Assembly: GCA_017469935.1 (NCBI GenBank)
Contig: JAFUFL010000062.1
Span: 1-41,815 of the forward strand
From: Lachnospiraceae bacterium
GTDB lineage: Bacteria > Bacillota > Clostridia > Lachnospirales > Lachnospiraceae
DNA: 41,815 nucleotides
Direction of reading: 5' to 3'
The translations under genes were made by a program, and so were the position numbers. The notes under the pieces were generated by a model. It worked only from the letters and a program-made list of their open reading frames with translations, was not told the DNA's origin and made no database searches. Shown here piece by piece: positions 7,550-23,833 of this stretch (the first letter of the stretch is position 1; every line of letters starts with the position of its first letter).

Positions 7550-7578
7550 TTTACAATTTTTCACGCACAGGGTATAGT
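7550..7578 (+). promoter_or_regulatory. Promoter of the sulfur operon
   Basis: TTTACA (7550-7555), a 17-base spacer and TATAGT (7573-7578) form a near-consensus sigma-A promoter. Transcription would begin about 7585, giving a 24-base leader before the ATG of the cysteine-rich leader peptide. Confidence 0.65.
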
Positions 7579-7608
7579 CGAAGACGACAAAAAGAAGGAG
7601 GAAAAGAA

Positions 7609-7737
7609 ATGTTTTATTATGTGATGCGCAAAGTGAATACTATGATGTGTTGCCGAATGCTGCACTCCCAGGCATGTAATATGGCAGGTGCGTTCGGGTG
7701 TTGTCCGATTGCGCGTTTTAGCATGAAACAATCTTAG
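7609..7737 (+). CDS. Cysteine/methionine-rich leader peptide (42 residues)
   Basis: An AAGGAGGAAAAGAA sequence sits just before ATG 7609, and the frame stops with TAG at 7735. The peptide has 42 residues, of which 5 are Cys (14, 15, 23, 31, 32) and 7 are Met, so about 29 percent contain sulfur; two Cys-Cys pairs (TGTTGC and TGTTGT) stand out. There is no signal peptide. It lies between the operon promoter and a terminator and ahead of sulfate transport genes. This is the arrangement of a ribosome-stalling leader that senses charged tRNA-Cys. A metal-binding small protein is the alternative. The stop codon is in the loop of a hairpin (7729-7744). Confidence 0.65.
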   Translation: MFYYVMRKVNTMMCCRMLHSQACNMAGAFGCCPIARFSMKQS

Positions 7738-7752
7738 AAGATTGATCTGGAA

Positions 7753-7822
7753 ATGCCATTCTGTCCGGGAGCTGATCTGCAGGCCCCCGTTTTTTATTGG
7801 AAAGAACAGGGGACAATGGCAT
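7753..7822 (+). promoter_or_regulatory. Transcription attenuator with competing pairings
   Basis: A terminator hairpin pairs 7766-7773 (CGGGAGCT) with 7782-7789 (GGCCCCCG), with one mismatch and one G-U, followed by TTTTTTATT. Its left arm can instead pair with leader-peptide codons: 7665-7674 (CTCCCAGGCA) against 7762-7771 (TGTCCGGGAG), 9 of 10 positions. Its right arm and U-tract can pair with 7801-7812 (CCCCCGTTTTTT against AAAGAACAGGGG). A further helix joins 7753-7766 and 7811-7822. A ribosome stalled on the first Cys-Cys codons would leave 7665-7674 free and block the terminator. The mechanism is inferred from pairing by eye. Confidence 0.55.
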
Positions 7823-7872
7823 GAAACATAGAATACAGAATACAGAATCAAAAAAAGAAGAGGGAAAATGTC

Positions 7873-8949
7873 ATGATAAATAAGAAGATAAAAATCATTG
7901 CTGCTGCATTGGCCGCTGTGTTGGCGCTGGGTACATTGACAGCCTGCGGCTCCGGCTCCGACTCGAAATCCTCAGGCGGCACCATCGAACTGACGAACGT
8001 GTCTTATGATCCTACCCGCGAATTGTACGCGGCATACAACGAGATATTTGAGCAACATTATGAGGAGAGCACCGGAAAGAAGATCGAGGTTACACAGTCT
8101 CACGGTGGTTCCGGAAAGCAGGCACTTGAGGTGTCGAACGGCCTCGAAGCAGATGTGGTGACCCTGGCGCTGGAAGGTGACGTACAGGTGGTGGCAGATG
8201 CAGGTCTCATTGATGATGGCTTCGTGTCAGAATTTCCTCTGGACAGCTCGCCGTACACCTCGACCATAGTATTCCTTGTTCGCTCCGGGAACCCCAAGGG
8301 TATATACGACTGGGACGACTTGATCCGCGATGATGTGGGTGTTATTACCCCGAATCCCAAGACCTCCGGCGGTGCCATGTGGAACTACCTGGCAGCCTGG
8401 TACTTTTTCGAGCAGCAGGGTCAGTCGGACGAAGATATCTTAGATTCCATCCGCAAGCTTTATGGCAATGTGGTGGTTCTCGATTCCGGCGCACGCGGAT
8501 CAACTACCTCCTTTGTGGAAAACGGCCAGGGAGATGTTTTGCTGGCCTGGGAGAACGAGGCGTTCCTTTCGCTGAAGGAACACCCCGGTGAGTATGAGAT
8601 CGTGGTACCCAGTGTATCTATCCTCTGCCAGCCAACGGTGGCTGTGGTAGACGAGGTTACGCGGAAGCACGACACTGTTGATGCGGCGACGGAGTACTTG
8701 AACTATCTTTATTCGGACGAAGCACAGGTGATCGAGGCGGAGAACTTCTATCGTCCCAGTACCCCGGAAGTCTATGCGCAGTATGTGACTGAGATAGAGG
8801 GCAACACCATCACCGAGATTCCGGAAAACGGTAAATGGATCAATGACAAGGTTGTTCTGACCGATATCAATCATTTCGGTGGATGGACACAGGCGCGTGC
8901 CGTGCATTTTGCCGACGGCGCGAACTTTGATTCCATCTACGAGCAGTAA
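7873..8949 (+). CDS. Sulfate ABC transporter substrate-binding lipoprotein
   Basis: The 358-residue protein has a lipoprotein signal with LTAC (cysteine about residue 25). It belongs to the Sbp/CysP family: LTNVSYDPTRELYAAYNEIF near the start, QSHGGSGKQAL (anion contacts), GLEADVVTLAL, NPKTSGGAMWNYLAAW, and a GARGSTTSF region that lines the sulfate site. It captures sulfate or thiosulfate outside the membrane and delivers it to the CysTW permease. It is the first structural gene after the attenuator. A strong hairpin follows the gene. Confidence 0.92.
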   Translation: MINKKIKIIAAALAAVLALGTLTACGSGSDSKSSGGTIELTNVSYDPTRELYAAYNEIFEQHYEESTGKKIEVTQSHGGSGKQALEVSNGLEADVVTLALEGDVQVVADAGLIDDGFVSEFPLDSSPYTSTIVFLVRSGNPKGIYDWDDLIRDDVGVITPNPKTSGGAMWNYLAAWYFFEQQGQSDEDILDSIRKLYGNVVVLDSGARGSTTSFVENGQGDVLLAWENEAFLSLKEHPGEYEIVVPSVSILCQPTVAVVDEVTRKHDTVDAATEYLNYLYSDEAQVIEAENFYRPSTPEVYAQYVTEIEGNTITEIPENGKWINDKVVLTDINHFGGWTQARAVHFADGANFDSIYEQ

Positions 8950-8957
8950 ACAATAAT

Positions 8958-8994
8958 CCGTCCGGCGCGGTTTTCATATGACCGTGCCGGACGG
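8958..8994 (+). other. Intra-operon mRNA hairpin between the sulfate-binding protein and cysT
   Basis: CCGTCCGGC-G-CGGT pairs with ACCG-T-GCCGGACGG (13 bp, one mismatch, 9-base loop). No T-run follows, so it is unlikely to terminate fully. Hairpins at this place in ABC importer operons often protect the upstream mRNA and raise the level of the binding protein over the permeases. Confidence 0.6.
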
Positions 8995-9015
8995 GAGGCG
9001 AAAGGGTTTCATCTC

Positions 9016-9858
9016 ATGAATAGGATGAGAAAACACAAAAGCATTATTCCCGGCTTCGGGCTCAGCTTCGGTTTGACGATCACGATATTGAGCCTGGTCG
9101 TGCTGATCCCGTTGTGCTCGCTGGCAGTCTTTACGGCGAGACTGTCGTTTTCGGAGTTTATCTATACCATTACCCGGCCGAGGGTCCTGTCGGGATACTG
9201 GGTGAGCATATCCACAGCACTCATCGCGGCGCTCGTGAACGCGGTCATGGGCTTCATCATGGCCTGGGTGCTGGTGCGGTACGACTTTCCCGGTAAAAAG
9301 TTCATTGACGGCATCATCGAACTGCCCTTTGCGCTGCCTACCGCAGTCGCAGGCATTTCGCTTACACATCTTACGACCACCAACGGCTGGGTGGGGAAGC
9401 TCTTTTATGAGGCCTTCGGAATCCGCATCGCATATACGCGGCTCGGCATTACCATCGCGCTCATTTTCATTGGAATTCCGTTCGTGGTGCGCTCTGTGCA
9501 GCCCGTCCTGGAGAAGATGGATATCCAGTACGAGGAGGCAGCCATGATCTTGGGCGCGGACCGGAGAACGACCTTTTGGAAGGTGATCTTTCCCGAGCTT
9601 TTACCCGCGCTTATCTCAGGCTTTACACTGGCCTTTGCCAGAAGCATCGGGGAATACGGAAGTGTGGTATTCATCGCGGGCAACACGCCCTATGAAACGG
9701 AAATCGCACCGCTTCTCATTATGTCCGAGCTTCAGGAATTTGATTACGCCGCAGCTACGTCCATCGCCCTCGTCATGCTTGCCATCGCGTTTATCATCCT
9801 GTCGATAAACGCCGTAGCCCAGAGCATTGTGTCCCGCCGCGTGAGCGGTCTTGCATAA
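9016..9858 (+). CDS. cysT: Sulfate ABC transporter permease CysT (CysU)
   Basis: The protein has 280 residues with six predicted membrane helices and the sulfate permease signatures: LPFALPTAVAGISLT, a YEEAAMILGADRRTTFWKVIFPELLPALISG coupling loop (EAA motif) and ARSIGEYGSVVFIAGN. With CysW it forms the membrane channel for sulfate. It is followed by cysW after 14 bases and lies within the operon headed by the attenuator. Confidence 0.93.
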   Translation: MNRMRKHKSIIPGFGLSFGLTITILSLVVLIPLCSLAVFTARLSFSEFIYTITRPRVLSGYWVSISTALIAALVNAVMGFIMAWVLVRYDFPGKKFIDGIIELPFALPTAVAGISLTHLTTTNGWVGKLFYEAFGIRIAYTRLGITIALIFIGIPFVVRSVQPVLEKMDIQYEEAAMILGADRRTTFWKVIFPELLPALISGFTLAFARSIGEYGSVVFIAGNTPYETEIAPLLIMSELQEFDYAAATSIALVMLAIAFIILSINAVAQSIVSRRVSGLA

Positions 9859-9872
9859 GGAGGCGGTCTTTT

Positions 9873-10703
9873 ATGGAACTGAGAAAAAACAGCGGCCCTC
9901 TCAAGTGGTGCATGATCACACTGGTCGTGGTCTTCCTGACGATGTTCCTGCTGCTGCCGCTGGTCTACATTGTGATCACGGCGCTCTCGAAGGGAATCGA
10001 CACGTACATATCCTCGATCACGGATGTATACGCCGTCAAGGCGGCGTGGCTCACGATCCAGGCGACATTGTGGGCGGTGCTCGTCAATACGATCTTCGGC
10101 ATCGCAGCGGCCTGGTGCCTGACGAAATTTGCCTTCAAGGGGAAAAAGATCATATCCACCTTCATCGATCTGCCGGTGACGGTGTCGCCCATCATCGCAG
10201 GCCTCATCTATGTGCTTACCTTTGGGCGTCAGAGCTTTTTGTATCCCATTCTGGACGGCTGGGGCATCCAGATCATTTTTGCAGTGCCGGGTATCATCCT
10301 GGCGACGATCTTTGTTACGTTCCCGTTCATCTCCCGGGAACTCATTCCGGTGCTGACGGCACAGGGGACGGACGAGGAGGAAGCTGCGGCGCTCATGGGC
10401 GCAGGTACTTTTACAATCTTTCGCAAGGTGACACTGCCCCATATTAAATGGGCGCTTCTGTACGGAATCGTGCTCTGCACTGCCCGCGCCATGGGGGAAT
10501 TCGGTGCGGTGTCGGTGCTCTCCGGGCATCTGAGGGGCAAGACGAACACCCTGCCGCTGTACATTGAGCTCTTGTATCAGGGCTACGACTTTACAGGCGC
10601 CTTTGCCGCGTCCAGCATTCTTGTGATCCTGGCTGTCGTTGTTCTGGTACTCCGGCTGCTGCTGGAGCATCGGGGACAGAAGGAGCTGGATATCCATAAG
10701 TGA
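9873..10703 (+). CDS. cysW: Sulfate ABC transporter permease CysW
   Basis: The protein has 276 residues with six membrane helices. DLPVTVSPIIAGLIYVL, the EEEAAALMGAGTFTIFRKVTLPHIKWALLYG coupling loop, and ARAMGEFGAVSVLSGHLRGKTNTLPLYIE are CysW hallmarks. AAGGAGGCGG precedes the start. It is the second half of the sulfate channel; the cysA ATG comes 10 bases after the stop. Confidence 0.93.
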   Translation: MELRKNSGPLKWCMITLVVVFLTMFLLLPLVYIVITALSKGIDTYISSITDVYAVKAAWLTIQATLWAVLVNTIFGIAAAWCLTKFAFKGKKIISTFIDLPVTVSPIIAGLIYVLTFGRQSFLYPILDGWGIQIIFAVPGIILATIFVTFPFISRELIPVLTAQGTDEEEAAALMGAGTFTIFRKVTLPHIKWALLYGIVLCTARAMGEFGAVSVLSGHLRGKTNTLPLYIELLYQGYDFTGAFAASSILVILAVVVLVLRLLLEHRGQKELDIHK

Positions 10704-10713
10704 GGAACGAATC

Positions 10714-11787
10714 ATGAGTGAGAATACAAGCTATGTCGAACTGCGGCATATAAACAAGCATTACGGCGATTTTCACGCGTCAAAGGACATCAATATCCGA
10801 ATTCCCAAGGGAAAACTAGTGGCGCTGCTTGGCCCCTCCGGCTCCGGCAAGACTACGATCCTGCGTATGATCGCGGGACTGGAGCATCCCGACTCCGGCG
10901 AGATCCTCATTGACGGCAAGGTCGTCAATGACGTTCCGGGGAGTGACCGCGGGATCGGCTTCGTATTTCAGAGCTATGCGCTGTTCCGATATATGACGGT
11001 ATATGACAATATCGCCTTCGGACTGCGCGTCAAGAAAACGCCGGAGAGGGAGATCAAAGAGCGAGTGTCGGAGCTCATGAAGCTCATAGGCTGCGAAGGG
11101 CTGGAAAAGCGCTATCCCAGCCAGCTGTCCGGAGGGCAGCGCCAGCGTGTGGCTTTCGCCCGTGCACTGGCACCCAATCCGCAGATCCTGCTGCTGGACG
11201 AACCTTTTGCGGCTATCGATGCCAAAGTGCGCCTGGAGCTTCGCACCTGGCTGCGTGATATGATCACCAGGATCGGCATCACCAGTATTTTCGTGACGCA
11301 CGACCAGAATGAGGCTATTGAGGTGGCGGATGAAATCATCGTGACGAATCTCGGCCGGGTGGAGCAGACCGGTACGCCGTCCGAGCTTTACACTGATCCT
11401 GCCACGCCATTTGTCGTGCGCTTTATAGGGAACTCTATCCCCGTGAAAAACTATGACCGCTTTCAATATTTTGAGGAGAGAGGGAAGGAAAGTGCGGCAA
11501 TCCTGCGCCCCGAGTTCATCAGCATCTTTAAAAAGGGTGAAAACGTTCAGTATTCAAAATCAGCCGAGGAAGGCGTGGTGGAAGATATCATTTTCCGGGG
11601 CAGCAATCTGGAGATTCGGGTTCGCCTCCATGGGAATCTTCTTTCCGCCATACGCAGCATCAATGACCCGGATATTCAGGTGGGAGAGACCGTGGATGTG
11701 TTCATTCATCGTCTGTTCGTGATCGATGGAGAGAAAGTGACAATGAAATATAACCAGTCACTCCGGGAAGAGAGTGTCATTATTTAA
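10714..11787 (+). CDS. cysA: Sulfate ABC transporter ATPase CysA
   Basis: The start at 10714 follows GAGGAACG; 357 residues. Walker A is GPSGSGKTT, Q-loop FVFQSYALF, signature LSGGQRQRVAFARAL, Walker B ILLLDEPFAAID, and switch histidine VTHDQNEA. A TOBE-like regulatory domain follows after about residue 240, with the usual RPEFI segment. It powers sulfate uptake through CysTW. The C-terminus overlaps or abuts the aprA start. Confidence 0.92.
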   Translation: MSENTSYVELRHINKHYGDFHASKDINIRIPKGKLVALLGPSGSGKTTILRMIAGLEHPDSGEILIDGKVVNDVPGSDRGIGFVFQSYALFRYMTVYDNIAFGLRVKKTPEREIKERVSELMKLIGCEGLEKRYPSQLSGGQRQRVAFARALAPNPQILLLDEPFAAIDAKVRLELRTWLRDMITRIGITSIFVTHDQNEAIEVADEIIVTNLGRVEQTGTPSELYTDPATPFVVRFIGNSIPVKNYDRFQYFEERGKESAAILRPEFISIFKKGENVQYSKSAEEGVVEDIIFRGSNLEIRVRLHGNLLSAIRSINDPDIQVGETVDVFIHRLFVIDGEKVTMKYNQSLREESVII

Positions 11788-11791
11788 TCCT

Positions 11792-13477
11792 ATGGAAAGA
11801 AAGTATTTAACAACAGACCTCCTTATTATCGGAGGAGGTACGGCGGGCTGCTATGCCGCCATTACGGCGGCGCGGCAGGCTCGGGACTTGCGTATATTGA
11901 TCGCCGAGAAGGCAAATATCAAACGTTCCGGCTGTCTGGCGGCGGGCGTGAACGCGCTCAACGCATATATAACCGAGGGACAGACCGTTCGTGACTATCT
12001 CGAATTCGTCCGCTGGGACGCGGAGAAAATCATTCGGGACGATCTGGTGCTTTCCATGGCGGAAGGCTTCAACGAGACCGCAGCAGATCTGGAACGGATG
12101 GGTCTTGTGATCCTGAAGGATGAACGCGGAAAATATGTGACGCGGGGACGACAAAATATCAAGATCAACGGCGAGAACATCAAACCCCTTCTGGCCGCCG
12201 AAGTGGGGCGGTATGGGAATATCGAAGTGCTGAATCACGTAAATATTACGGATTATCTGACTGCGGAAGGGCGCGTTTTCGGCGCAGTCGGTTTTGGCGT
12301 GGAAGAGGAGATCGAATACGGGATATCCGCGCGGGCGGTGCTGATCGCCACCGGCGGGGCGGCGGGACTGTACCGGCCCAATAATCCCGGCTTTTCACGG
12401 CACAAAATGTGGTATCCGCCTTTTAATACCGGCGCGGGTTACGCCATGGGCATCCGGGCCGGCGCGGAGATGACCAGCTTCGAGATGCGGTTTGTTGCGC
12501 AGCGATGCAAAGACACGATCGCTCCCACGGGTACCATTGCCTTGGGCGTCGGTGCCCGGGAAGTAAACGCCCGCGGAGAGATCTATGAAAAGCAATATGG
12601 CCTGTCTACCTCCGGACGGGCTTACGGGACCACGAACGAGACCTATGAGGGACGCGGCCCCTGCTACCTCCGAACAAAGGGGATCACATCGGAGCAGGAT
12701 GAGGAGCTCCTGAGAGCCTATCTGAACATGGCGCCGGCGCAGACTCTGAAGTGGATTGAGAGCGGAAGACTCCCTTCGGAGCAGAACGTGGAGATCGAGG
12801 GGACGGAACCCTATATTGTGGGCGGACACACGGGCAGTGGATACTGGGTGGACACACGCAGACGCACGACGCTCGCAAACCTGTATGCAGCAGGGGATGT
12901 GTCCGGCGGAGCTCCGAAAAAATTTGTTACGGGAGCGCTGGCAGAAGGCGCAATTGCGGCGGAGACGATCCTGAGCGATATCAAAAATATACCTCCTGCG
13001 GAGGAGGCGGTCGTTCGCGCCAGGGCAGAGAAGGTGTTTCTTGACTATGAGCGCAGGCTGTCCGATGCTCCGCAGGAGCCGTATGATGTGTTTGCCATAG
13101 AGGAGGCCATGCAGAAGGTCATGGACGAGTACGCCGGAGGGATCAAAACCGCTTATCGTTACAATGCCGGGCAGCTGGCGCTGGCAGACAGCTCCATCGA
13201 TCGGCTGATCGTTCTTGCGGAGGGGCTGACCGGCCCCGACATGGATACGCTCGTTCATATTTATGAGCTGCGGGAACGGCTGACGGTGTGCAAGGTGCTC
13301 ATCGCCCATCTGTGCGCTCGCAAGGAGACCCGGTGGCCGGGTTTTGCAGTGCATACCGATCATCCGCAGCTGAGCGGGGACTACGAATGCTATGTGAATT
13401 CAAAATGGCTCGATGGGCATTTGGAAGTCTTTACCCGGCCTTTGGTGAGGGAGGGCGCATATGAGCATACATATTGA
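11792..13477 (+). CDS. aprA: Adenylylsulfate (APS) reductase alpha subunit, assimilatory-type AprA
   Basis: This 561-residue FAD protein has LLIIGGGTAGCYAA, the dinucleotide-binding motif, followed by SGCLAAGVNALN, and a later NLYAAGDVSGGAPKKFVTGALAEG FAD-binding segment; it belongs to the fumarate reductase/AprA flavoprotein family. Together with the two-cluster ferredoxin encoded next and CysDN, the context indicates reduction of APS to sulfite. ATG 11792 is chosen because it gives a natural MERKYLTTD start coupled to the cysA stop; a GTG at 11774 is possible. No PAPS reductase or APS kinase gene is present. AprA in dissimilatory sulfate reducers is somewhat longer. Confidence 0.85.
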   Translation: MERKYLTTDLLIIGGGTAGCYAAITAARQARDLRILIAEKANIKRSGCLAAGVNALNAYITEGQTVRDYLEFVRWDAEKIIRDDLVLSMAEGFNETAADLERMGLVILKDERGKYVTRGRQNIKINGENIKPLLAAEVGRYGNIEVLNHVNITDYLTAEGRVFGAVGFGVEEEIEYGISARAVLIATGGAAGLYRPNNPGFSRHKMWYPPFNTGAGYAMGIRAGAEMTSFEMRFVAQRCKDTIAPTGTIALGVGAREVNARGEIYEKQYGLSTSGRAYGTTNETYEGRGPCYLRTKGITSEQDEELLRAYLNMAPAQTLKWIESGRLPSEQNVEIEGTEPYIVGGHTGSGYWVDTRRRTTLANLYAAGDVSGGAPKKFVTGALAEGAIAAETILSDIKNIPPAEEAVVRARAEKVFLDYERRLSDAPQEPYDVFAIEEAMQKVMDEYAGGIKTAYRYNAGQLALADSSIDRLIVLAEGLTGPDMDTLVHIYELRERLTVCKVLIAHLCARKETRWPGFAVHTDHPQLSGDYECYVNSKWLDGHLEVFTRPLVREGAYEHTY

Positions 13478-13775
13478 CAGGGATAAATGCATCCGCTGCG
13501 GCGCGTGCAGGGAGATATGCCCCGGCAATCTGATCGGGCGTACGACGGACGGAACAGCGTATCTGAGGCACCCGGAAGAGTGCTGGGGCTGCGCCTCCTG
13601 CCTGAAGGAGTGCCGTCATGAGGCGATCTTCTATTTCTTGGGCGCGGATATCGGCGGTCAGGGAAGCCGGATGCAGACCAACCGGGAAGGAGATCTGACG
13701 CACTGGATCATCAGCAGTCCGGGAAGGGAACCCTTTACCATCACGGTGGATCGCCGGGAATCAAACAAGTATTAG
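13461..13775 (+). CDS. aprB: APS reductase beta subunit, ferredoxin-type AprB
   Basis: The 104-residue protein carries two [4Fe-4S] motifs: [12 protein letters not shown] and [11 protein letters not shown]. The C-terminal tail has [19 protein letters not shown], similar to the tail strand of AprB that contacts AprA. It passes electrons to the FAD of AprA. It overlaps aprA by 17 bases, which fits a fixed subunit ratio, and cysD follows after 10 bases with an AGGAGG site. Confidence 0.87.
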
Positions 13776-13785
13776 GAGGCTGAAC

Positions 13786-14688
13786 ATGCAGGAACTATCC
13801 CATCTGGACAAGCTGGAGGCGGAGGCAATCTATATCCTCCGGGAAGTGGCGGCGGAATGTGAAAAGCCGGTGATGCTCTATTCTATCGGCAAGGACAGTT
13901 CTGTACTGCTGCATCTGGCGCTGAAGGCTTTTTGGCCGGAAAAGCCGCCGTTTCCCTTCCTACATATCGACACCGGCTGGAAATTTCGCGAAATGATTGC
14001 GTTCCGGGACAAAACAGCGGAGAAATACGGGCTGGACATGCTGGTGTACAGGAATGAGGAAGGAATAAAGCAGGGCATCAATCCCTTTGACCACGGGTCG
14101 GTCTATACGGACATTATGAAGACACAGGCGCTTCGGCAGGCACTTGCAAAATACGGCTTTACGGCGGCGTTTGGAGGCGGCCGGCGGGATGAGGAGAAAT
14201 CCCGTGCCAAGGAGCGCATCTTTTCCTTCCGGAATCGTGAGCAGGCATGGGATCCGAAAAACCAGCGTCCCGAGATGTGGAAGCTTTATAACACCCGAAT
14301 CTATAAAGGGGAGAGTATACGTGTGTTTCCTATTTCCAACTGGACGGAAAAGGATATCTGGCAGTACATCCGAAGGGAAAACATCGAGATCGTCCCATTG
14401 TATTATGCCGCGCAGCGCCCGGTCGTGTACCGCGACGGTAATCTGATCATGGTAGACGACGACCGCTTACCCCTTTTGCCGGGCGAGAGGCCGGAGCCCA
14501 AAAGCATTCGCTTCCGAACTCTGGGCTGCTATCCGCTCACCGGCGGCGTGGAATCTACGGCGGACACGCTGGACGGCATTATCGATGAGACACTTTCTGC
14601 CGTGACCAGCGAACGCACCAGCCGTGTGATCGACCGGGATGGCGGAGAGGCCTCCATGGAAAAGCGCAAGCGGGAGGGGTATTTCTGA
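13786..14688 (+). CDS. cysD: Sulfate adenylyltransferase subunit 2, CysD
   Basis: The protein has 300 residues and the PP-loop SIGKDSS near residue 35, the [13 protein letters not shown] segment, [19 protein letters not shown], and [10 protein letters not shown], all conserved in CysD. It transfers AMP from ATP to sulfate to give APS, with CysN driving the reaction by GTP hydrolysis. The stop lies at the cysN start (1 base before its ATG), so the two are translationally coupled. Confidence 0.95.
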
Positions 14689-14689
14689 C

Positions 14690-16288
14690 ATGAACGGACT
14701 ACTGAAATTTATTACTTGCGGCAGCGTGGACGATGGAAAATCGACACTCATCGGCCACATCCTGTACGACACAAAGCTCCTGTATGCCGATCAGGAGAAG
14801 GCGCTGGAATTGGACAGCCGCGTGGGATCACGCGGAGGAGAGATCGATTACTCGCTCCTGCTTGACGGCCTCATGGCAGAACGGGAGCAGGGAATCACCA
14901 TCGACGTGGCGTATCGCTATTTTACCACTGACCGCCGCAGCTTCATCGTCGCAGATACGCCGGGCCATGAAGAATACACGCGGAACATGGCCGTCGGCGC
15001 GAGCTTTGCGGATCTTGCTGTGATCCTGGTCGATGCCACGAAAGGCATTCTGGTCCAGACCCGGCGCCATGCGTGGATCTGTGCGCTCATGGGCATTCAG
15101 TATTTTGTCTTTGCAGTCAACAAAATGGACCTGGCGGAGTATGCGAAAGAGCCCTTCGAGAGGATCTGTACGCATATCGATGAGCTGAAAAATAACCTGG
15201 GGCTTCAGAACGTAAAGATCATCCCTCTCTCCGCGACGGAGGGGGAAAATGTGACCCGAAAATCGGAACGCATGGGCTGGTATGACGGCGAACCGCTGCT
15301 CGACTATCTGGAGACGGTGGAAATCGATACGGTCAGCCGTGAAGAGGGCTTTTATATGCCGGTGCAGAGGGTCTGCCGACCGGATCACACGTTCCGGGGA
15401 TTCCAGGGACAGATAGAGGCGGGAGAGCTTCGGGAGGGTGATGAACTGACGTCGCTGCCCAGCGGCACCCGGGCAGCAGTAAAGGCAATCTATGTCGGTG
15501 AAGACCGGACTGCGTATGCTGTCCAGGGTCAGCCGGTCACGGTGGAACTCGATCAGGAGATCGACGTGTCCCGCGGCAGTGTTCTTGCAAAGGGCACGGC
15601 GCTCCGCACGGCCAGCCGGTTCGACGCCACACTGCTATGGATGGACGATGAGAGGTTCATCAACAGCCGCGCCATGTTCGTGAAGGTGGGCACACGCCTC
15701 ATCCCGGGGAAAATCACAGGGATTCGTTATATCATCGACGTGAACACCGGGGAGCATCGGAATGCCCAGAGCCTTCAGAAAAATGAGATTGCACTCTGCT
15801 CTGTAGAGCTTTCGTCTCCTGCGGTACTCGATACATTTTCCAATCACCGGACGCTGGGAGAACTGATCCTGATCGACCGGGTGACAAACGCAACCTCTGC
15901 CTGCGGCGTTATCGAGACGATCACTGACAGTCAGGGTCGTGGAGAGACCGAGGTCAGCCCCGAAGTCCGCGCGAAGTATATGGGGCAGACGCCCTATCTC
16001 ATATTCGCCGACGACGCCTGCAAGGCAGAAGAGATTGAGCTGAAACTTCTTTCTCAGGGAATGCATACCATGCGTCTGTGTGTAAGCGGCGAGCACCTTA
16101 TTTTCGCCGCGGATATCCTGCAGCGCGCAGGGCTTATCACAGTCATTTCCGGCGATCTTCTTGACATGGAAATAGAGGAGGGGCTGCGAAAGAAGCTGTA
16201 TTCAAAGCTAATTGTGGACTTGCGGGAGGGCGGACCTCAAAAGGACCGGCTTCTATACGAGAACATGGTAAACTACGTCTTTTCATGA
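14690..16288 (+). CDS. cysN: Sulfate adenylyltransferase subunit 1, CysN, with vestigial APS-kinase-like tail
   Basis: The 532-residue GTPase has GSVDDGKST (G1), DTPGHEEY (G3) and NKMD (G4), then EF-Tu-like domains up to about residue 430. The last 100 residues have no counterpart in the 475-residue E. coli enzyme. They contain FADDACKAEEIELKLLSQGMHT-like and DILQRAGLITVISGD-like stretches that resemble the ends of an APS kinase (CysC) domain, but no P-loop. PAPS is not needed in this pathway, since AprAB uses APS, so a lost kinase domain would make sense. The tail assignment is inference. Confidence 0.93.
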   Translation: MNGLLKFITCGSVDDGKSTLIGHILYDTKLLYADQEKALELDSRVGSRGGEIDYSLLLDGLMAEREQGITIDVAYRYFTTDRRSFIVADTPGHEEYTRNMAVGASFADLAVILVDATKGILVQTRRHAWICALMGIQYFVFAVNKMDLAEYAKEPFERICTHIDELKNNLGLQNVKIIPLSATEGENVTRKSERMGWYDGEPLLDYLETVEIDTVSREEGFYMPVQRVCRPDHTFRGFQGQIEAGELREGDELTSLPSGTRAAVKAIYVGEDRTAYAVQGQPVTVELDQEIDVSRGSVLAKGTALRTASRFDATLLWMDDERFINSRAMFVKVGTRLIPGKITGIRYIIDVNTGEHRNAQSLQKNEIALCSVELSSPAVLDTFSNHRTLGELILIDRVTNATSACGVIETITDSQGRGETEVSPEVRAKYMGQTPYLIFADDACKAEEIELKLLSQGMHTMRLCVSGEHLIFAADILQRAGLITVISGDLLDMEIEEGLRKKLYSKLIVDLREGGPQKDRLLYENMVNYVFS

Positions 16289-16371
16289 TGAAATTGCGGC
16301 TGTGGATAAAAAACAGACGCGGCGAGGCGGGAGAACAACAGGAAACATGAAGCAGGGAGGATGATGATCAA

Positions 16372-17646
16372 ATGGAATATGACTGTGGATTTAATACAAA
16401 GCTCTTGCATGGAAAAACATCTAAAGGTTTTCCAAACAGGGAGATCCTTCCACCGATCTCGCAGGTTACAGCATTTCGTTATGACAGTATGGAGGAACTG
16501 GAAAGAGTTTTTTTACACAAGAGTATGGGCTATGCATATTCTCGTATCGGCAATCCGACTATTACAGCATTTGAACAAAGAATTCAGGAACTGGAGGGAG
16601 GGGCCGGCGCTGTTTGCTGCAGCAGCGGAATGTCCGCGATCACAGCCGCCCTCCTGTCGATTTGTGAGAGCGGGGATGAAATCATTGCCGGAAACTGTCT
16701 GTATGGAGGAACCATTGGTCTTTTTCATGATCTTGAAAAATGGGGAATCCATATCGTATATGTCAAAGATCTGACAGAGGAAACGGTAAAGCCGCTGATC
16801 AATGCACATACGAAGGCGATTTTTGGAGAATTGATTTCTAATCCCTCCCTGAAGGTTATGAATGTTCCGAGTATATCCCGCCTGGCGCATGAAGCCGGAA
16901 TTCCACTGATCGTGGATTCTACGACCGCGACGCCGTTTATCGCACGTCCGCTGGAATTGGGTGCGGATATCGTGATCCATTCGACTTCCAAATATCTAAA
17001 CGGAGGAGGAAATTCGATTGGAGGGGTGATCGTAGATGGCGGGACATTTCGATGGAACTTTGAGAAGCATACTGCCCTGAGTGAGTTTAAAAAGTTTGGG
17101 AAACTGGCGCTTTCGGTAAGACTCAGGACGGATACCTGGGAGAATCTCGGAGGGTGTATGGCTCCCATGAATGCCTTCTTAAGCTATATCGGCACGGATA
17201 CGCTGGGATTGCGTATGCAGAGGATCTGTGAGAATGCCGACAGGCTTGCACATGCACTTGATCAGATGAAGGGAATACAGGTCAGTTACCTCACGCTGCC
17301 TTCACATCCTTGTTATGAAGAGGCAAAGGATCTTCTTGATGGGTATGGAGGCGGTATTTTGAGCTTCAGGGCAGGGTCGAAGGAGCGTGCTTTCCGTATT
17401 ATCAATTCTTTAAAGTATGCCTGTATCGCAAGCAATATCGGAGATGTAAGGACCCTGGTCATCCATCCGGCATCGACTTTGTACATCCAGGCAAGTAAAG
17501 AAGAAATGCAGGCAGCCGGAGTCTATGAGGATACCGTAAGGGTGAGTGTTGGAATAGAGAGCGCTGACGATCTGATCGCTGATTTTACAGAAGCGATAAA
17601 CAATTCTCGGGAGGGAAAAGAAGATGAAAATTGTAGTTTCAGGTGA
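16372..17646 (+). CDS. metY: O-acetylhomoserine sulfhydrylase-like PLP enzyme (MetY)
   Basis: The 424-residue protein of the Cys/Met metabolism PLP family has YSRIGNPT, the SSGMSAITAAL substrate pocket, VDSTTATPF, and the PLP lysine in STSKYLNGGGNSIGG (about residue 206). It makes homocysteine from O-acetylhomoserine and sulfide or a carrier thiocarboxylate. A GGGAGG site is 11 bases before ATG 16372. Its end overlaps the ThiS-like gene by 23 bases. G+C visibly drops here relative to cysN. In Wolinella succinogenes MetY takes sulfur from HcyS, and the same gene set follows here. Confidence 0.88.
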   Translation: MEYDCGFNTKLLHGKTSKGFPNREILPPISQVTAFRYDSMEELERVFLHKSMGYAYSRIGNPTITAFEQRIQELEGGAGAVCCSSGMSAITAALLSICESGDEIIAGNCLYGGTIGLFHDLEKWGIHIVYVKDLTEETVKPLINAHTKAIFGELISNPSLKVMNVPSISRLAHEAGIPLIVDSTTATPFIARPLELGADIVIHSTSKYLNGGGNSIGGVIVDGGTFRWNFEKHTALSEFKKFGKLALSVRLRTDTWENLGGCMAPMNAFLSYIGTDTLGLRMQRICENADRLAHALDQMKGIQVSYLTLPSHPCYEEAKDLLDGYGGGILSFRAGSKERAFRIINSLKYACIASNIGDVRTLVIHPASTLYIQASKEEMQAAGVYEDTVRVSVGIESADDLIADFTEAINNSREGKEDENCSFR

Positions 17647-17830
17647 AAAAAAGGAAGTTGCGGAAAATCTTACTGTCGCGGCACTGATCGAACAGGAGAA
17701 GGTGGAGACCCCGCAGTATGTGACAGTGTCCGTGAACGAGGAATTTATTGAGTCAGGGTCATTTGCAGACCGGATTCTTCATGAAGGTGATGAGGTGGAG
17801 TTCCTTTACTTTATGGGAGGAGGGAAGTAA
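17624..17830 (+). CDS. hcyS: ThiS-like sulfur carrier protein (HcyS type)
   Basis: The protein has 68 residues with a beta-grasp pattern (MKIVVSG, VTVSVNEEFI, VEFLYFM) and ends MGGGK. ThiS and MoaD end in Gly-Gly, where the thiocarboxylate forms; here extra residues follow GG, so the tail must be trimmed, and the JAMM protease encoded two genes later can do that. It overlaps metY and shares one base with the E1-like gene start. It could be a thiamin ThiS, but no thiGH or thiE is near, and the metY-JAMM context favours homocysteine synthesis. Confidence 0.8.
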   Translation: MKIVVSGEKKEVAENLTVAALIEQEKVETPQYVTVSVNEEFIESGSFADRILHEGDEVEFLYFMGGGK

Positions 17831-18639
17831 TGGCATTTACCAATGAACAGCTGGAGCGATATTCCAGGCATATTATCTTAAAAGAGATCGGCGTGAAAGG
17901 CCAGAAGAAGCTGACCGCCTCAAAAGTGCTGATCATCGGCGCCGGAGGTCTGGGGGCGCCTGCAGCCCTGTATCTGGCGGCTGCGGGGGTAGGGACGATC
18001 GGAATTGTGGACGCGGACGTCGTGGATCTTTCCAACCTCCAGCGGCAGGTGATACATACGACAGAGGATATTGGAAAGAAAAAGGTGGATTCGGCGGCCG
18101 AGACCATGCGGCAGATCAATCCGGATGTGACCGTTAACACCTATCATCAATTTGTTACCGGCGATAATATTTTAGATTTGATAGAAGGGTACGACTTCAT
18201 TCTGGACGGGACGGATAATTTCCCGGCGAAATTTTTGATCAATGATGCATGTGTCATGGCAGGGAAACCGTTCTCTCATGCGGGGATCATCCGCTTTAAG
18301 GGACAGCTCACAACTGTTATTCCGGGAGAAAGCCCCTGCTACCGCTGTATTTTTAAGGATCCGCCGCCGAAGGATGCAGTGCCCACATGCAAACAGGCAG
18401 GCGTGATCGGCGCCATGGGCGGTGTGATCGGCTCGCTCCAGGCAATGGAGGCGATCAAATACATTACCGGAGCAGGAGAATTGCTGACCGGATATTTGCT
18501 GACCTTTGATGCATTGTCCATGCAGTTTCGCAAGATCAAACTGCCTCCCCGCGGCAGCGGCTGCGCAGTATGCTCGGATCATCCGACGATCACGAAACTG
18601 ATTGATTATGAACAGGCGGCGTGTGAACTGAAGAAATGA
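17830..18639 (+). CDS. hcyF: ThiF/MoeB-type E1-like adenylyltransferase (HcyF type)
   Basis: The protein has 269 residues with GAGGLGAPAALYLA nucleotide motif, DADVVDLSNLQRQ, DGTDNFPAKFLIND, the catalytic cysteine in PTCKQAGVIG, and two CxxC pairs (CYRC, CAVC) for zinc. It adenylates the carrier's C-terminal glycine so that sulfur can be added. It starts one base after the carrier's stop begins. It would act on the HcyS-type carrier once the tail has been removed. Confidence 0.88.
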   Translation: MAFTNEQLERYSRHIILKEIGVKGQKKLTASKVLIIGAGGLGAPAALYLAAAGVGTIGIVDADVVDLSNLQRQVIHTTEDIGKKKVDSAAETMRQINPDVTVNTYHQFVTGDNILDLIEGYDFILDGTDNFPAKFLINDACVMAGKPFSHAGIIRFKGQLTTVIPGESPCYRCIFKDPPPKDAVPTCKQAGVIGAMGGVIGSLQAMEAIKYITGAGELLTGYLLTFDALSMQFRKIKLPPRGSGCAVCSDHPTITKLIDYEQAACELKK

Positions 18640-19109
18640 ACTCCCGCAAACGAGTCTTGAATATGAGAATAACAATACAAAAATCAGAATTTAAAAAAAT
18701 ATATAATTATGCATTGTTACAGCTCCCGGATGAGGCCTGCGGATTGATTGCAGGATATGATAAAGAGGATGGAAGCAGAGAAATCAGGAAGGTTTATCTT
18801 CTCACAAATACCGATCATACGAATGAACATTTTTCCATCGATCCAAGAGAGCAGCTGCAGGCAGTCCGGGAAATGCGGGCGGAAGGCCTTAAGCCGCTTG
18901 GAAACTGGCATTCTCACCCGGAAACGCCTTCCAGACCTTCCGAGGAAGACAAAAGGCTGGCTAATGACCCAAATGCGTCATATCTGATCCTTTCTCTGGA
19001 GGAGAAGGAAAGGCCGGTCCTGAATGCATTTCATGTGGAATCTGTAAATGGAGACAAAGTGGTACGAAAAGAAGAACTGGTGATTGTTCAGGAGGTTGAA
19101 AATGGCTGA
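18636..19109 (+). CDS. hcyD: JAMM/Mov34 metalloprotease (HcyD type)
   Basis: The protein shows the JAMM zinc site: glutamate in DEACGLI and H-S-H-P...S-x-x-D in NWHSHPETPSRPSEED. Two starts are possible: ATG 18636, which overlaps the E1 stop (ATGA), or ATG 18663, which gives MRITIQKSEF and looks like the natural N-terminus (148 residues). Its expected job is to cut residues after GG of the carrier protein, which here ends GGGK. In the characterised Wolinella system HcyD does this before HcyF acts. It overlaps the TusA-like gene by 8 bases. Confidence 0.85.
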   Translation: MNSRKRVLNMRITIQKSEFKKIYNYALLQLPDEACGLIAGYDKEDGSREIRKVYLLTNTDHTNEHFSIDPREQLQAVREMRAEGLKPLGNWHSHPETPSRPSEEDKRLANDPNASYLILSLEEKERPVLNAFHVESVNGDKVVRKEELVIVQEVENG

Positions 19110-19353
19110 TGCTGCGTATACGCCGACGGAAATAGTAGATATTACGGATGTGGTCTGCCCGGTCACATTTGTGAAGACGAAAGTGGCTCTGGAGGAGCTG
19201 GAGGACGGACAGATCCTGCAGGTGCATTTAAATGACGGAGAACCGGTGCAGAATGTACCCAGAAGCGTTAAAGATGAGGGCCATCAGGTCCTGAAGCTTA
19301 AGGACAATGAAGACGGAACCTATGAACTGTATATCCGGAAAGTGGGAGACTGA
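19102..19353 (+). CDS. TusA/SirA-like sulfurtransferase
   Basis: The start at 19102 has AGGAGG upstream and gives 83 residues. The conserved TusA core is VVCPVTFVKTKVALEELEDGQILQV; the usual CPxP motif reads CPVT, so the second proline is absent but the active cysteine is kept. TusA proteins carry a persulfide between sulfur donors and acceptors. Lying between the JAMM protease and sulfite reductase, it may hand reduced sulfur from the reductase to the carrier; that is inference. Confidence 0.82.
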   Translation: MADAAYTPTEIVDITDVVCPVTFVKTKVALEELEDGQILQVHLNDGEPVQNVPRSVKDEGHQVLKLKDNEDGTYELYIRKVGD

Positions 19354-19354
19354 T

Positions 19355-20218
19355 ATGGCAGTGGATTATGCAACATTGAAAAAGGGCGGTTTCATGCGCC
19401 AGAAACAGAAAAATCATTTTTCGCTCCGACTGTCGGTTGTCGGAGGACAGGTGAGCGCCAGTCAGCTAACAGCTATAACAAAAGTTGCGGAAAAATATGG
19501 CCGCGGATACATCCATCTCACCTCCAGGCAGGGGATAGAGATTCCTTTTATCCGGCTTGAAGACATTGATGAGGTGAAAGAGGCTCTGGCCGAAGGAGGC
19601 GCAAGTCCCGGTGTCTGCGGCCCCAGGGTGAGAACAATTACTGCCTGTCAGGGATCGGCGGTATGTCCGAACGGATGTATCGAGACAGAAGAACTGGCGC
19701 AGGAACTGAACAGGCGGTATTTCGGAAAAGAGCTGCCGCACAAATTTAAGTTCGGGATCACAGGCTGTCAGAATAACTGTCTGAAAGCAGAAGAAAACGA
19801 TCTGGGGATCAAGGGCGGCGTTCGTGTCAGCTGGGTACAGGAACGCTGTATTTCCTGCGGGGTCTGCGCAAAGGTGTGCAGGGAGAAGGCGATTCGTATC
19901 GAAGACGGCAGAATAGAAATAGATCGGGAAAAATGTAATTATTGCGGAAGATGTGCTTTCAGCTGCCCTACGGACGCGTACGAAACGGCTCCGGGTTATC
20001 TGCTGAGCTTCGGCGGTCTGTTCGGGAACAAGATCAGTAAGGGAGTGACAGTGCTTCCTTTTGTGGAAGATCAGGACACGTTATTTCGAATTTGCGACGC
20101 TGCCCTGGAATTCTTTAAAGAAAATGCAGTTCCCGGAGAACGCTTTAAATTTACGATCGATCGTGTAGGACGGGAGAAGCTGGATGAAACGTTATGGAGT
20201 GCTTTTGAGGGAAATTAG
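19355..20218 (+). CDS. Small siroheme sulfite reductase with inserted ferredoxin domain
   Basis: The start at 19355 gives 287 residues. The nitrite/sulfite reductase half has ACQGSAVCPNGC (C-x5-C) and GCQNNC (C-x3-C), the siroheme/[4Fe-4S] ligands, and TSRQGIEIPFI before it. A ferredoxin insert with two [4Fe-4S] motifs (CISCGVCAKVC, CNYCGRCAFSC) follows. This fits the small clostridial sulfite reductase type. It would reduce sulfite from AprAB to sulfide. Its last 35 bases overlap the ABC lipoprotein gene. Confidence 0.85.
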   Translation: MAVDYATLKKGGFMRQKQKNHFSLRLSVVGGQVSASQLTAITKVAEKYGRGYIHLTSRQGIEIPFIRLEDIDEVKEALAEGGASPGVCGPRVRTITACQGSAVCPNGCIETEELAQELNRRYFGKELPHKFKFGITGCQNNCLKAEENDLGIKGGVRVSWVQERCISCGVCAKVCREKAIRIEDGRIEIDREKCNYCGRCAFSCPTDAYETAPGYLLSFGGLFGNKISKGVTVLPFVEDQDTLFRICDAALEFFKENAVPGERFKFTIDRVGREKLDETLWSAFEGN

Positions 20219-21095
20219 CAGAAGAATTCTTTTTGTGCTGTTTTGTGCCGTGCTGCTTGGCGGATGCTCTGCTCCGAAAACGGAGGATACGAAGGCAGAG
20301 GGAGAATCCACTGCTGTACCCCAAAAAGTGATCGCATTGTCAAAATCCAATGCGGAGCTTTGGCTCCTTGCCGGTGGAAGCCTTATCGGAACGAGTGAGG
20401 ATGCCATGGCCCTTGCGGGCATATCACCGGAAACGGTCTCTCTGGGCGATATGGATCATGTCAGCCTGGAAGCAATCGCCGGACTGGAACCGGATCTGAT
20501 CATCCTTTTTTCAACCGATCCGGCGCAGAAAGCATTGGGAGAAGCAGCGGAAGAAATCGGCCTTCCGGTCTTCTATACGAATATTGACTCTTTTGAAGAC
20601 TACAGGGAAGTGATGCTCTCCTTTACACAGATGACCGGTCGGGAGGACCTGTACCGGAAAAACGTGGAGGAAGTTGATGCGCAGATTGAGGATATCCGTA
20701 CCATGGTGCCGGAAGACGGAGGCGGAACGTACCTGCTGCTGCATGTCTCCGCGACAAAAAGCAAGGTGGAAAAGAATGATTACTTTGCCAGCGAAATACT
20801 GAATGATCTTGGGCTTACCAATATCGCATCTGACACAGGCGATTTTGATGAACTGTCCATGGAACAGATTGTGGTGAGTGATCCGGACTACATTTTTGTT
20901 GTGCCAAGGGGAGAAGAAGAAAAAGCCAGTGCCGCATTCGATGAATTGTTTCGATCTCATCCTGCGTGGGAGTCTCTGAAGGCGGTCAAAAACGGGCGGT
21001 TTTATCTTCTTTCCAAAGAACTGTTCGGCCTGAAACCGAACGGAAGATGGGCAGAAAGCTACAGGCAGGCATATGAGCTGCTATATGGAGAATAA
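20184..21095 (+). CDS. FecB/BtuF-type ABC transporter substrate-binding lipoprotein
   Basis: The protein has 303 residues. A basic N-terminus and hydrophobic stretch end in LLGGC, a lipobox (cysteine about residue 28). The helical-backbone TroA/FepB fold is recognised from VIALSKSNAELWLLAGG, LGDMDHVSLEAIAGLEPDLIIL, and SDPDYIFVVPRG. It would bind an iron chelate, cobalamin or other tetrapyrrole outside the membrane. It overlaps the sulfite reductase gene and is followed directly by its permease and ATPase. The substrate is unknown; the setting suggests iron or siroheme supply. Confidence 0.85.
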   Translation: MKRYGVLLREISRRILFVLFCAVLLGGCSAPKTEDTKAEGESTAVPQKVIALSKSNAELWLLAGGSLIGTSEDAMALAGISPETVSLGDMDHVSLEAIAGLEPDLIILFSTDPAQKALGEAAEEIGLPVFYTNIDSFEDYREVMLSFTQMTGREDLYRKNVEEVDAQIEDIRTMVPEDGGGTYLLLHVSATKSKVEKNDYFASEILNDLGLTNIASDTGDFDELSMEQIVVSDPDYIFVVPRGEEEKASAAFDELFRSHPAWESLKAVKNGRFYLLSKELFGLKPNGRWAESYRQAYELLYGE

Positions 21096-22072
21096 TGCGC
21101 AAATACTTTTTTCCGATTGTTATATTGATCAGTTTAATTATGTTAGCGCTCCTGGCAGGAAACAGCGCTGTCAGGACAAAAGATTTTCTGGGAGTTCTCA
21201 GCGGTGGAGGGACAGACGGCCATAAGATGATCTTATATCAGGTAAGACTGCCAAGAATTGCAGCGGCAGTGTTCTCTGGAGCCGGTCTGTCCGTTTCCGG
21301 CTTTCTTCTGCAGGGCAGTCTGGATAACCGGATTGCTTCTCCGGGAATTTTGGGCATCAATAATGGTGCAGGTCTTTTTGTCCTGCTGTCTGCCTGCTTT
21401 TTTCCTTTTCAGGCTGCCATGAAATGCCTGATGGCTTTTTTGGGGGCACTCCTCGTCACATTTATGGCATATGGTCTGGCTGCAAAAACAGGAATGTCCA
21501 AAACATCAGTAGTACTTGCGGGAGTAGCAGTTTCCGCCCTGTGCGCGTCTATCATTGACATTATGATCTCCTGGAGACCGGAGATAGTCGCGGATAAGAC
21601 AGCTTTCCAGATCGGAGGGTTCGCGGCTGTATCTGCAATGATGGTTTCATTTGGTGCCCCGGTAATTGCGTTCGGACTGCTTGCCGCTTTCGTAACCGCA
21701 CCATCTATGGATATTCTCCGCCTGGGAGATGAAACTGCACATGGACTGGGCCTGAATACGAGAAGATACAGGGGGCTGTGTGTCTTTTGCTCGGCACTTC
21801 TTGCCGGAGCAGCCATCAGTATGGGAGGACTCATTGGATTTGTCGGACTAATCGTTCCAAACTGCGTCCGCAGCTTATGGAGAGGAAATGCAAGACCGGC
21901 CGTTTTTTTCTGCGCTGTTTACGGGGCCCTCTTATTATTGCTGTGCGATACACTTTCCCGCATGGTAGTCTTCCCGTACGAACTGCCATGCGGTCTTTTT
22001 TTGAGTATTGCCGGTGCCCCCTTTTTGATTTTGACTTTGATAAGAAAGAGAAAGAGGCTGGGAGCAGATTGA
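21095..22072 (+). CDS. FecCD-family ABC permease
   Basis: The protein has 325 residues with about nine or ten membrane helices. LYQVRLPRIAAAVFSGAGLSVSGFLLQG and ASPGILGINNGAGL are strong FecCD signatures, as is GGLIGFVGLIVPNCVRS near the coupling loop. It probably acts as a homodimer with the ATPase encoded next. The start overlaps the stop of the binding-protein gene by one base. Confidence 0.92.
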   Translation: MRKYFFPIVILISLIMLALLAGNSAVRTKDFLGVLSGGGTDGHKMILYQVRLPRIAAAVFSGAGLSVSGFLLQGSLDNRIASPGILGINNGAGLFVLLSACFFPFQAAMKCLMAFLGALLVTFMAYGLAAKTGMSKTSVVLAGVAVSALCASIIDIMISWRPEIVADKTAFQIGGFAAVSAMMVSFGAPVIAFGLLAAFVTAPSMDILRLGDETAHGLGLNTRRYRGLCVFCSALLAGAAISMGGLIGFVGLIVPNCVRSLWRGNARPAVFFCAVYGALLLLLCDTLSRMVVFPYELPCGLFLSIAGAPFLILTLIRKRKRLGAD

Positions 22073-22830
22073 TTACGATCAGGAATATGGAAACATCATA
22101 CCCCCAGGGGAAATCCTTTCGGATTGATGAAGCCTGTTTTGAGAAAGGCCGGATCACCTCCATCCTGGGCAGAAATGGTTGCGGAAAGACGACGCTGCTT
22201 CGGACGATGACCGGATTTCTCCCTTACCGGGGCAGTATAGAAATCGACGGAAAAGAGTGCAGAGATTATACAGGGCTTGAAAGAGCACAAAAAGTCGCGT
22301 ATCTTCCACAGATTATGAAAGCGGTAAAAATGGATGTGGAATCATTGGTGGAACATGGCAGGTTCCCATGGCACGGCAGTTTTCGCAGAATGTCCGTATC
22401 GGATAAAAATGTGATTGAGAATGCGCTGGAAATGACACATATGACTTCACTGAAGGCACGGGATCTGACTGAACTGTCAGGAGGAGAATTACGGCGGGCT
22501 TACCTGGCAATGGTAATTGCCCAGAATACCGAAATGATTTTGCTCGATGAGCCCACGACGTATATGGATATAGAAAGCCAGAAATTGTTCTTTGAGATTG
22601 TCCGCACGCTTGCGGACAGGGGGCGCGGTATTGTAATGACCTGTCACGATATTGCACAAAGCTTTTCGCTAAGTGACATCATCGTACTCATGGACCAGGG
22701 GGGTGTCAGGAAGACAGGTACTCCCGACAGTCTGGAAAAACACAGAGACGATCTTGTGCAATTGCTTGGAACTGCAGTGAAGCGGATAGACGATGAAAAG
22801 CTGATATATCCCTATGTATTGATAAGATGA
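22069..22830 (+). CDS. FecE/FepC-type ABC ATPase
   Basis: The protein has about 253 residues from a TTG at 22069 that overlaps the permease stop and yields a usual N-terminal strand (ITIRNMETSY); an ATG at 22087 is possible. Walker A GRNGCGKTT, Q-loop YLPQIM, signature LSGGELRRAYLAM, Walker B MILLDEPTTYMD and switch histidine TCHDIAQSF are all intact. It powers the FecBCD-type importer of this cluster. Confidence 0.9.
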   Translation: MITIRNMETSYPQGKSFRIDEACFEKGRITSILGRNGCGKTTLLRTMTGFLPYRGSIEIDGKECRDYTGLERAQKVAYLPQIMKAVKMDVESLVEHGRFPWHGSFRRMSVSDKNVIENALEMTHMTSLKARDLTELSGGELRRAYLAMVIAQNTEMILLDEPTTYMDIESQKLFFEIVRTLADRGRGIVMTCHDIAQSFSLSDIIVLMDQGGVRKTGTPDSLEKHRDDLVQLLGTAVKRIDDEKLIYPYVLIR

Positions 22831-22838
22831 GGTGCGGC

Positions 22839-22934: not shown

Positions 22935-22968
22935 GAAAATAAAAAACATACGCATCAGGAGCAATACA

Positions 22969-23802: not shown

Positions 23803-23833
23803 ATCAGAAAATACTCCAGGAGACAAAACAAAA

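Follow-up and report, generated by a model that had tools for sequence, protein, structure and literature searches.

The window, the whole stretch of 41,815 nucleotides from a Lachnospiraceae bacterium that was analysed, carries an 18-kb operon for sulfate uptake and reduction and for cysteine and homocysteine synthesis (Table 1), with all genes on one strand. The operon starts with a sulfate-binding protein, CysT, CysW, CysA, AprA, an AprB-like protein, CysD, CysN and a sulfhydrylase, and its products include an APS reductase. Its other genes encode ThiS, ThiF, a JAB protein, sulfite reductase, a FecCD-type ABC system, LarE, a second PLP enzyme and a nitrilase-like protein, and a terminator-like site follows the operon at 26108-26133. 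The ThiS-like, ThiF/MoeB-like and JAB genes (17624-19106) adjoin the sulfhydrylase and sulfite reductase genes, a neighbourhood which suggests sulfur delivery by a protein thiocarboxylate.

A preliminary description had placed a 42-codon frame with a strong Shine-Dalgarno sequence, 5 Cys and 7 Met upstream of this operon, behind a near-consensus promoter and ahead of a terminator with a U6 tract. All of these features are present. The promoter-like site agrees with the consensus at 10 of 12 positions, and the frame encodes MFYYVMRKVNTMMCCRMLHSQACNMAGAFGCCPIARFSMKQS, with cysteines at residues 14, 15, 23, 31 and 32. Among 100 shuffles of the DNA upstream of the window operon, none contained a Shine-Dalgarno-led short frame with at least five Cys; because of this, and because the element recurs in many genomes, the frame is not a product of chance. 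The terminator consists of CGGGAGCUGAUCUGCAGGCCCCCG (7766-7789) followed by the U6 tract (7790-7795), with a folding energy of -10.6 kcal/mol on its own, and was not reported by a simple terminator scan of the window.

Table 1. Positions and basis of the features discussed, in window coordinates unless another locus is named
Feature	Position	Strand	Basis
Promoter-like site TTTACA-17-TATAGT	7550..7578	+	10/12 consensus matches
Shine-Dalgarno sequence AAGGAGG	7595..7601	+	sequence
Leader peptide frame, 42 codons	7609..7737	+	sequence, family comparison
Putative control codons UGU UGC (Cys14-Cys15)	7648..7653	+	Cys codons near CGAAUG anchor across family
CCGAAUGC, 5' arm of possible protector hairpin P0, holds CGAAUG	7653..7660	+	8-bp stem possible
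Segment 1, predicted antiterminator 5' arm, CUCCCAGGCA	7665..7674	+	pairing with segment 2, covariation
AUGGCA, 5' arm of second antiterminator helix	7681..7686	+	covariation, fold
Predicted apical hairpin P2 inside antiterminator	7688..7714	+	constrained fold
GCGUUCGG, 3' arm of possible protector hairpin P0	7690..7697	+	present in family subset
UGCCAU, 3' arm of second antiterminator helix	7754..7759	+	covariation, fold
Segment 2, predicted antiterminator 3' arm, UGUCCGGGAG	7762..7771	+	pairing with segment 1, covariation
Predicted intrinsic terminator with U6 tract	7766..7795	+	fold, family pairing
Sulfate/thiosulfate-binding protein, first gene of operon	7873..8949	+	NF008022, 1.9e-116
Sulfate uptake/reduction and cysteine/homocysteine synthesis operon	7873..25824	+	protein family matches
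Other Cys-rich short frames	L031 about 5673-5777; L033 and L038 about 5448-5553; L040 about 5891-5935		

It had also been proposed that codons 19-22 pair with the left arm of the terminator. Segment 1 and segment 2 do pair at 9 of 10 positions, one of the pairs being G-U, and the CGGGAG of segment 2 is also part of the terminator 5' arm. The helix originally proposed for the antiterminator is retained, but a second one, AUGGC:GCCAU, has to be added to it. When this structure is enforced, the window antiterminator forms an imperfect hairpin of 107 nt with a predicted energy of -34.9 kcal/mol. Within the family described below, both window structures are among the weaker ones, with 9/10 pairs and a duplex energy of -18.9 compared to a family median of -24.9 kcal/mol for the antiterminator, and -10.6 compared to -15.3 kcal/mol for the terminator. 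Taken as a whole, the 296-nt leader does not stand out by its folding energy (z -0.76). The apical hairpin P2 in the window alone was equalled by 15 of 50 shuffles, while P2 stems summed over 67 elements were better than shuffles. An inverted repeat, ATGCCATT/AATGGCAT at 7753-7760 and 7815-7822, flanks the terminator; since it spans the terminator, segment 2 has an additional possible downstream partner. The right arm of this repeat (7815-7822) is not conserved in L037.

A family of leaders with a common RNA core

When the peptide was searched against 397 genomes from its own family, short frames with the pattern M-C-C-R-M-x-x-S-R-A were found; visual inspection of the first residues of the next proteins places 12 of the 16 aligned matches before O-acetylhomoserine sulfhydrylase-like genes. 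Further members came from 392 genomes of the order, searched with a profile, and two of these are additional copies in the genome of the window. At the DNA level the consensus consists of AUG-UGU-UGU-CGA-AUG, CUCCCGGGCA, AUGGCYGG, a spacer, GCCAUUUGCCCGGGAG and a terminator. A number of weak peptide matches (for example L014, L016-L019, L021, L022 and L024-L030) showed no element on inspection and were not counted.

From 49 candidates of peptide-similarity origin, chosen with no RNA criterion, L067 (which has no segment 2), L081, L087, L055 and L058 were removed to give an alignment of 44 rows, A2, and a covariance model, R1, was built from these 44 leaders. R1 finds three copies in the genome of the window. 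It matches 49 of 397 Lachnospiraceae genomes, representing 45 of 334 genera (E <= 0.001), 13 of 391 genomes of the class (E <= 0.01) and 5 of 398 genomes of the phylum; each of these counts takes in the genome of the window itself, and in searches over more than 40 genomes stricter filters applied, by which weak matches are lost. A second alignment, A3, which was fitted to R1, holds 67 of 68 matches, an antisense match in L004 being left out. In all, 105 distinct copies of the element were collected, 3 of them in the genome of the window. Neither the window nor 20 homologous loci gave a match at the element in Rfam 15, which reported at these loci only one tRNA and three sub-threshold matches, all away from the element. 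The window peptide and 16 members had no match in Pfam-A or NCBIfam 20. A scan of viral contigs for the exact core motif gave no hit.

The pairing between segments 1 and 2 is conserved throughout this large family and covaries. In the 44 leaders, CUCCCGGGCA:UGCCCGGGAG together with AUGGC:GCCAU was paired in 94.2% of cells, compared to 28-45% when the arms were slid against each other. There were 15 double-change cells compared to 3.2 in shuffles, a value reached by 0 of 500 shuffles, and RNAalifold, unaided, chose the first antiterminator helix. In 57 further elements outside the training set of R1, the antiterminator was 92.1% paired, and 13 of its 15 pairs showed double changes, in 67 cells compared to 12.7 in shuffles (0/500). 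Since these elements were found with R1, which includes the antiterminator, selection contributes to the percentage of paired cells; the training set did not, however, dictate which letters compensate each other.

For the terminator, the same 44 leaders gave 81.7% pairing and 6 double-change cells compared to 1.5 in shuffles (0/500). Its covariation score of 0.144 is no better than that obtained with the 3' arm slid by one column (0.152), because the 3' arm is placed variably. RNAalifold on A3 returned no P2 and the terminator only as a fragment, as R1 holds the antiterminator only. A hairpin around the stop codon, P3, was weak (669.5 compared to 616.2 +- 17.3 in shuffles). In L159, L160 and L166 the antiterminator stands before metY-like genes with no clear U tract in the stretch inspected, and control may act there at another step.

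The frame accompanies the RNA. In 95 of the 105 elements the best Shine-Dalgarno-ATG pair shares the reading frame of the Cys codons, where about 35 would be expected. A script found a Cys codon at most four codons before the CGAAUG anchor in 104/105 elements, with at least two Cys in 82; the lone exception, L165, has CCC by eye. Segment 1 begins 11 nt after the first base of CGAAUG in 101/105, and the median distance from the stop codon to segment 2 is 28 nt. Not all of the peptide highlighted in the preliminary description is kept. The first of the two Cys-Cys pairs (codons 14-15) recurs in the family, but the later one has not been preserved as such, its place often being taken by a single Cys in the 16 aligned members. 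Similarly, of the seven Met codons, the one after Arg is nearly invariant (103/105), but the others vary. Ahead of the Cys pair the peptide varies freely, and neither its N terminus nor its C terminus aligns among the aligned members. Past segment 1 the frame is often shifted while the RNA pairing is kept. A variable N terminus and shifted frames are what one would expect if nothing but the Cys codons and the RNA counted. In L096 the frame (ending CCRMR) reaches no further than the edge of segment 1, and yet segments 1 and 2 still pair. Taken together, the variable peptide, the shifted frames and L096 indicate that the conserved part is a Cys codon at a nearly fixed distance from segment 1, plus the RNA pairs. 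The leader frame ends in Arg-Cys-stop in 22/105 elements; stalling at this terminal position would not obviously help read-through. In several of these frames the CGATGTT at that place can pair with AACAT(C) just downstream.

The CGAATG sequence is found in 96/105 elements, a conservation that is more than the attenuation model needs. It could form the 5' arm of a protector hairpin, P0 (CGAAUGC:GCGUUCG), for which the best-stem score on 67 elements was 852 compared to 607.6 +- 16.9 in shuffles. In fixed register, covariation of P0 over 101 elements (16 compared to 14.3 +- 3.0) was not above shuffles, and covariation therefore does not support P0 as a universal protector. The minimum-energy fold of window positions 7651-7712 has another hairpin, UGCCG:UGGCA, instead of the 8-bp P0, and this hairpin would also hide AUGGCA. 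A full six-base complement of CGAAUG lies in the P0 stretch in 36/105 elements, and another lies in the link of segment 2 in 31/105.

Genes behind the element

A next gene could be assigned for 88 of the 105 elements; the other 17 have none, mostly since the locus ends early. Among the best 25 of 28 downstream families, which may overlap, the next genes of these 88 were 51 Cys/Met PLP enzymes (metY/metB-type), 11 family-3 solute-binding proteins, 7 NlpA/MetQ proteins, 4 permeases, 3 cysteine synthases, 2 SBP_bac_11 proteins (the type of the window's sulfate-binding protein) and 2 ABC ATPases, and cysS was absent. Among the rarer next genes are those for a sulfopropanediol dehydratase-like enzyme, a JAB protein, a peptidase and a short-chain dehydrogenase with no evident sulfur link. 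Two family-3 proteins, those of L080 and L148, were compared with known families, and both match binding proteins for amino acids and cystine with scores under the curated cut-offs. Apart from the sulfate operon, the genome of the window carries one copy (L079) heading metY, with cysK adjoining, and one (L080) heading an ABC transporter for amino acids, possibly cystine. In L133 the element stands before a gene at 1737 that resembles (2S)-3-sulfopropanediol dehydratase over the first 330 residues, which were compared; in that organism the use of sulfonates would thereby be linked to cysteine supply.

Covariation in relatives had been put forward as a check on the window leader. The pairing does covary, but the element is present in only 1 of 10 relatives of the window's sulfate-binding gene in named genomes, namely L037, the closest of them (98% over the best segment). 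L037 keeps the RNA of the element and is without about 98 nt that hold the promoter, Shine-Dalgarno sequence and start in the window. The element is not tied to sulfate operons as such; it marks a sulfur regulon mostly headed by metY-type genes. L031, L033 and L038 have no element at this place but other Cys-rich, Shine-Dalgarno-led short frames with 9, 6 and 6 Cys, respectively, each reached by 0 of 100 shuffles. L036 has a frame very similar to that of L033, which lies at the end of a short contig where the Shine-Dalgarno sequence is beyond scoring. The frame in L040, MKLSSVVIRMRCCL, was reached by 11 of 100 shuffles, and a scan for Shine-Dalgarno-led frames against shuffles gave no convincing Cys-rich short frame before the sulfate operon in L032, L034, L035 and L039. 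Cysteine leaders before sulfate operons may have arisen repeatedly. The contig of L039 is labelled as an uncultured planctomycete, and its cysP is 72% identical to that of the window; it is possibly misbinned.

Attenuation model, alternatives and known systems

The arrangement has the features of a leader-peptide attenuator: a frame that looks translated, control codons for the end product, a predicted terminator before the gene and an antiterminator that begins directly behind the control codons and would exclude it. The preliminary reading of the locus as a translation-coupled attenuation design is supported by this comparison, and its dependence on cysteine supply is what we infer from the codons and the genes downstream. 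We consider it highly probable that the element is a cysteine-responsive, ribosome-mediated transcription attenuator sensing charged tRNA-Cys. Comparison across the family shows the structural parts of such a device, namely the Shine-Dalgarno-led frame with its Cys codons, both the antiterminator and the terminator, and the sulfur genes downstream; the model adds to these the stalling at the Cys codons, the masking of segment 1, the direction of control and P0. RNA polymerase would transcribe the leader, which codes for the short peptide. On a shortage of Cys-tRNA, the translating ribosome would halt at the Cys codons with its leading edge ending just before segment 1. Segment 1, left free, would pair with segment 2, with AUGGC:GCCAU and hairpin P2 stacked inside the antiterminator, and the terminator would not form, so the operon would be read. 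When cysteine is ample, the ribosome would run over segment 1 to the stop codon, segment 1 would be masked or refolded, perhaps into P0, and segment 2 would pair with segment 3, so transcription would stop before the gene.

A possible but rather doubtful extension is that the element represents a regulon-wide class of clostridial RNA switches, in which one conserved, apparently spreading module ties stalling at Cys codons to termination in many sulfur operons that are otherwise unrelated (those for PLP enzymes, for cystine-like transport, for the transport of methionine and sulfate, and for the use of sulfonates). The CGAAUG sequence would then have a role beyond classical attenuation, for example as a site of programmed polymerase pausing or as a competitor for pairing, which would fix the default state.

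Met codons flank the Cys pair (M-C-C-R-M), and this raises the question of whether a shortage of methionine could act too, which would make the leader a dual sensor of cysteine and methionine. Of the 420 codons that make up the four positions before the anchor, 211 are Cys and 130 are Met, with Met at -3 in 61/105 and at -4 in 48/105, and MetQ and MetY/MetB-type genes are found downstream. At -3, however, Cys replaces Met in 33/105, cysK and sulfate-uptake genes would be controlled too, and a stall on the nearly invariant AUG after CGA would, we infer, partly cover segment 1 and favor termination. We consider a dual sensor unlikely. The conservation of C-C-R-M-x-x-S-R-A as protein in most members could also point to an arrest peptide, whose nascent CCRM.. 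would stop the ribosome on segment 1 in response to a metabolite and promote termination. Yet R-M and S-R-A coincide with CGAAUG and segment 1, where it is the RNA that is conserved, the peptide shows no conservation ahead of the Cys pair, frame shifts after S-R-A are frequent although the RNA is kept, and L096 ends at CCRMR, all of which makes this explanation improbable.

The high sequence conservation for an attenuator, above all that of CGAATG, would fit an RNA of the riboswitch type, to which a ligand or a protein binds (for example via CGAAUG and CCCGGG) and in which the frame is incidental. The frame does not behave as incidental, since in almost every element its Shine-Dalgarno sequence and its Cys codons are in phase and these codons lie near the anchor. 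No compact consensus fold was found before segment 2 in an alignment fitted only to the antiterminator, and the lack of an Rfam match at the element in the window and in 20 homologous loci likewise speaks against such an RNA, which we regard as very improbable. Finally, hardly any credence can be given to a functional small protein, metal-binding or RiPP-like, that precedes a terminator by chance. Its being Cys-rich and conserved would suit this idea, but there was no protein family match for the window peptide or the 16 members, the termini do not align, frameshifts are tolerated and the antiterminator covaries. If cysteine-responsive attenuation is the true explanation, about 1 in 8 of the sampled family genomes (49/397) would sense Cys by translation, and the genes so controlled would often form a dispersed regulon. 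The motif would predict cysteine-responsive genes in uncultured species, in one case for a sulfonate-degrading enzyme, and R1 is a ready annotation model for a family that has no Rfam, Pfam or NCBIfam match.

Control of sulfur amino acid genes in Firmicutes is usually ascribed to T-boxes, S-boxes and CymR. The physiological role proposed here is the same, but the sensor here would be a translated codon pair. No T-box or SAM riboswitch match reached the Rfam gathering score in the window, and five T-box matches in the genome of the window were all under the cut-off and on other contigs. The trp/his-type leader-peptide attenuators have control codons and mutually exclusive antiterminator and terminator structures. 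The element resembles them in both respects but responds, according to the model, to another amino acid, and differs in that one conserved RNA sequence is common to many unrelated operons. For bacilli, a his leader peptide has been described (PMC2965389).

The uORFC-8-2 motif upstream of cysS in Rhodobacterales is described by Brewer et al. 2021 (PMC8632094) as an AUG-started frame with two tandem Cys codons, usually at 14-15, and a U run consistent with an intrinsic terminator, and it has been proposed to be a sensor of charged tRNA-Cys. The window shares with that description the tandem Cys codons at 14-15 and the intrinsic terminator. Its setting is different, as the window operon starts with sulfate uptake; compared by description, uORFC-8-2 is a motif of Alphaproteobacteria that precedes cysS only, whereas the present element forms a dispersed clostridial regulon of many sulfur genes. 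Cysteine-responsive control by polycysteine leaderless short ORFs of mycobacteria has reportedly been treated by Canestrari et al. in 2020. In the mycobacterial cys leader peptides the Cys run lies close to the stop codon, and a terminator hairpin is not conserved (PMC1262725). The likeness is that Cys codons lie in an upstream frame of sulfur operons, but here the frame is led by a Shine-Dalgarno sequence, the Cys codons are in mid-frame, and both a terminator and an antiterminator are conserved. A clostridial form of the Cys-codon leader was not found among the matches listed from open-licence PMC papers. The principle of attenuation at Cys codons is known, and it is the clostridial RNA and its multigene regulon that appear to be new.
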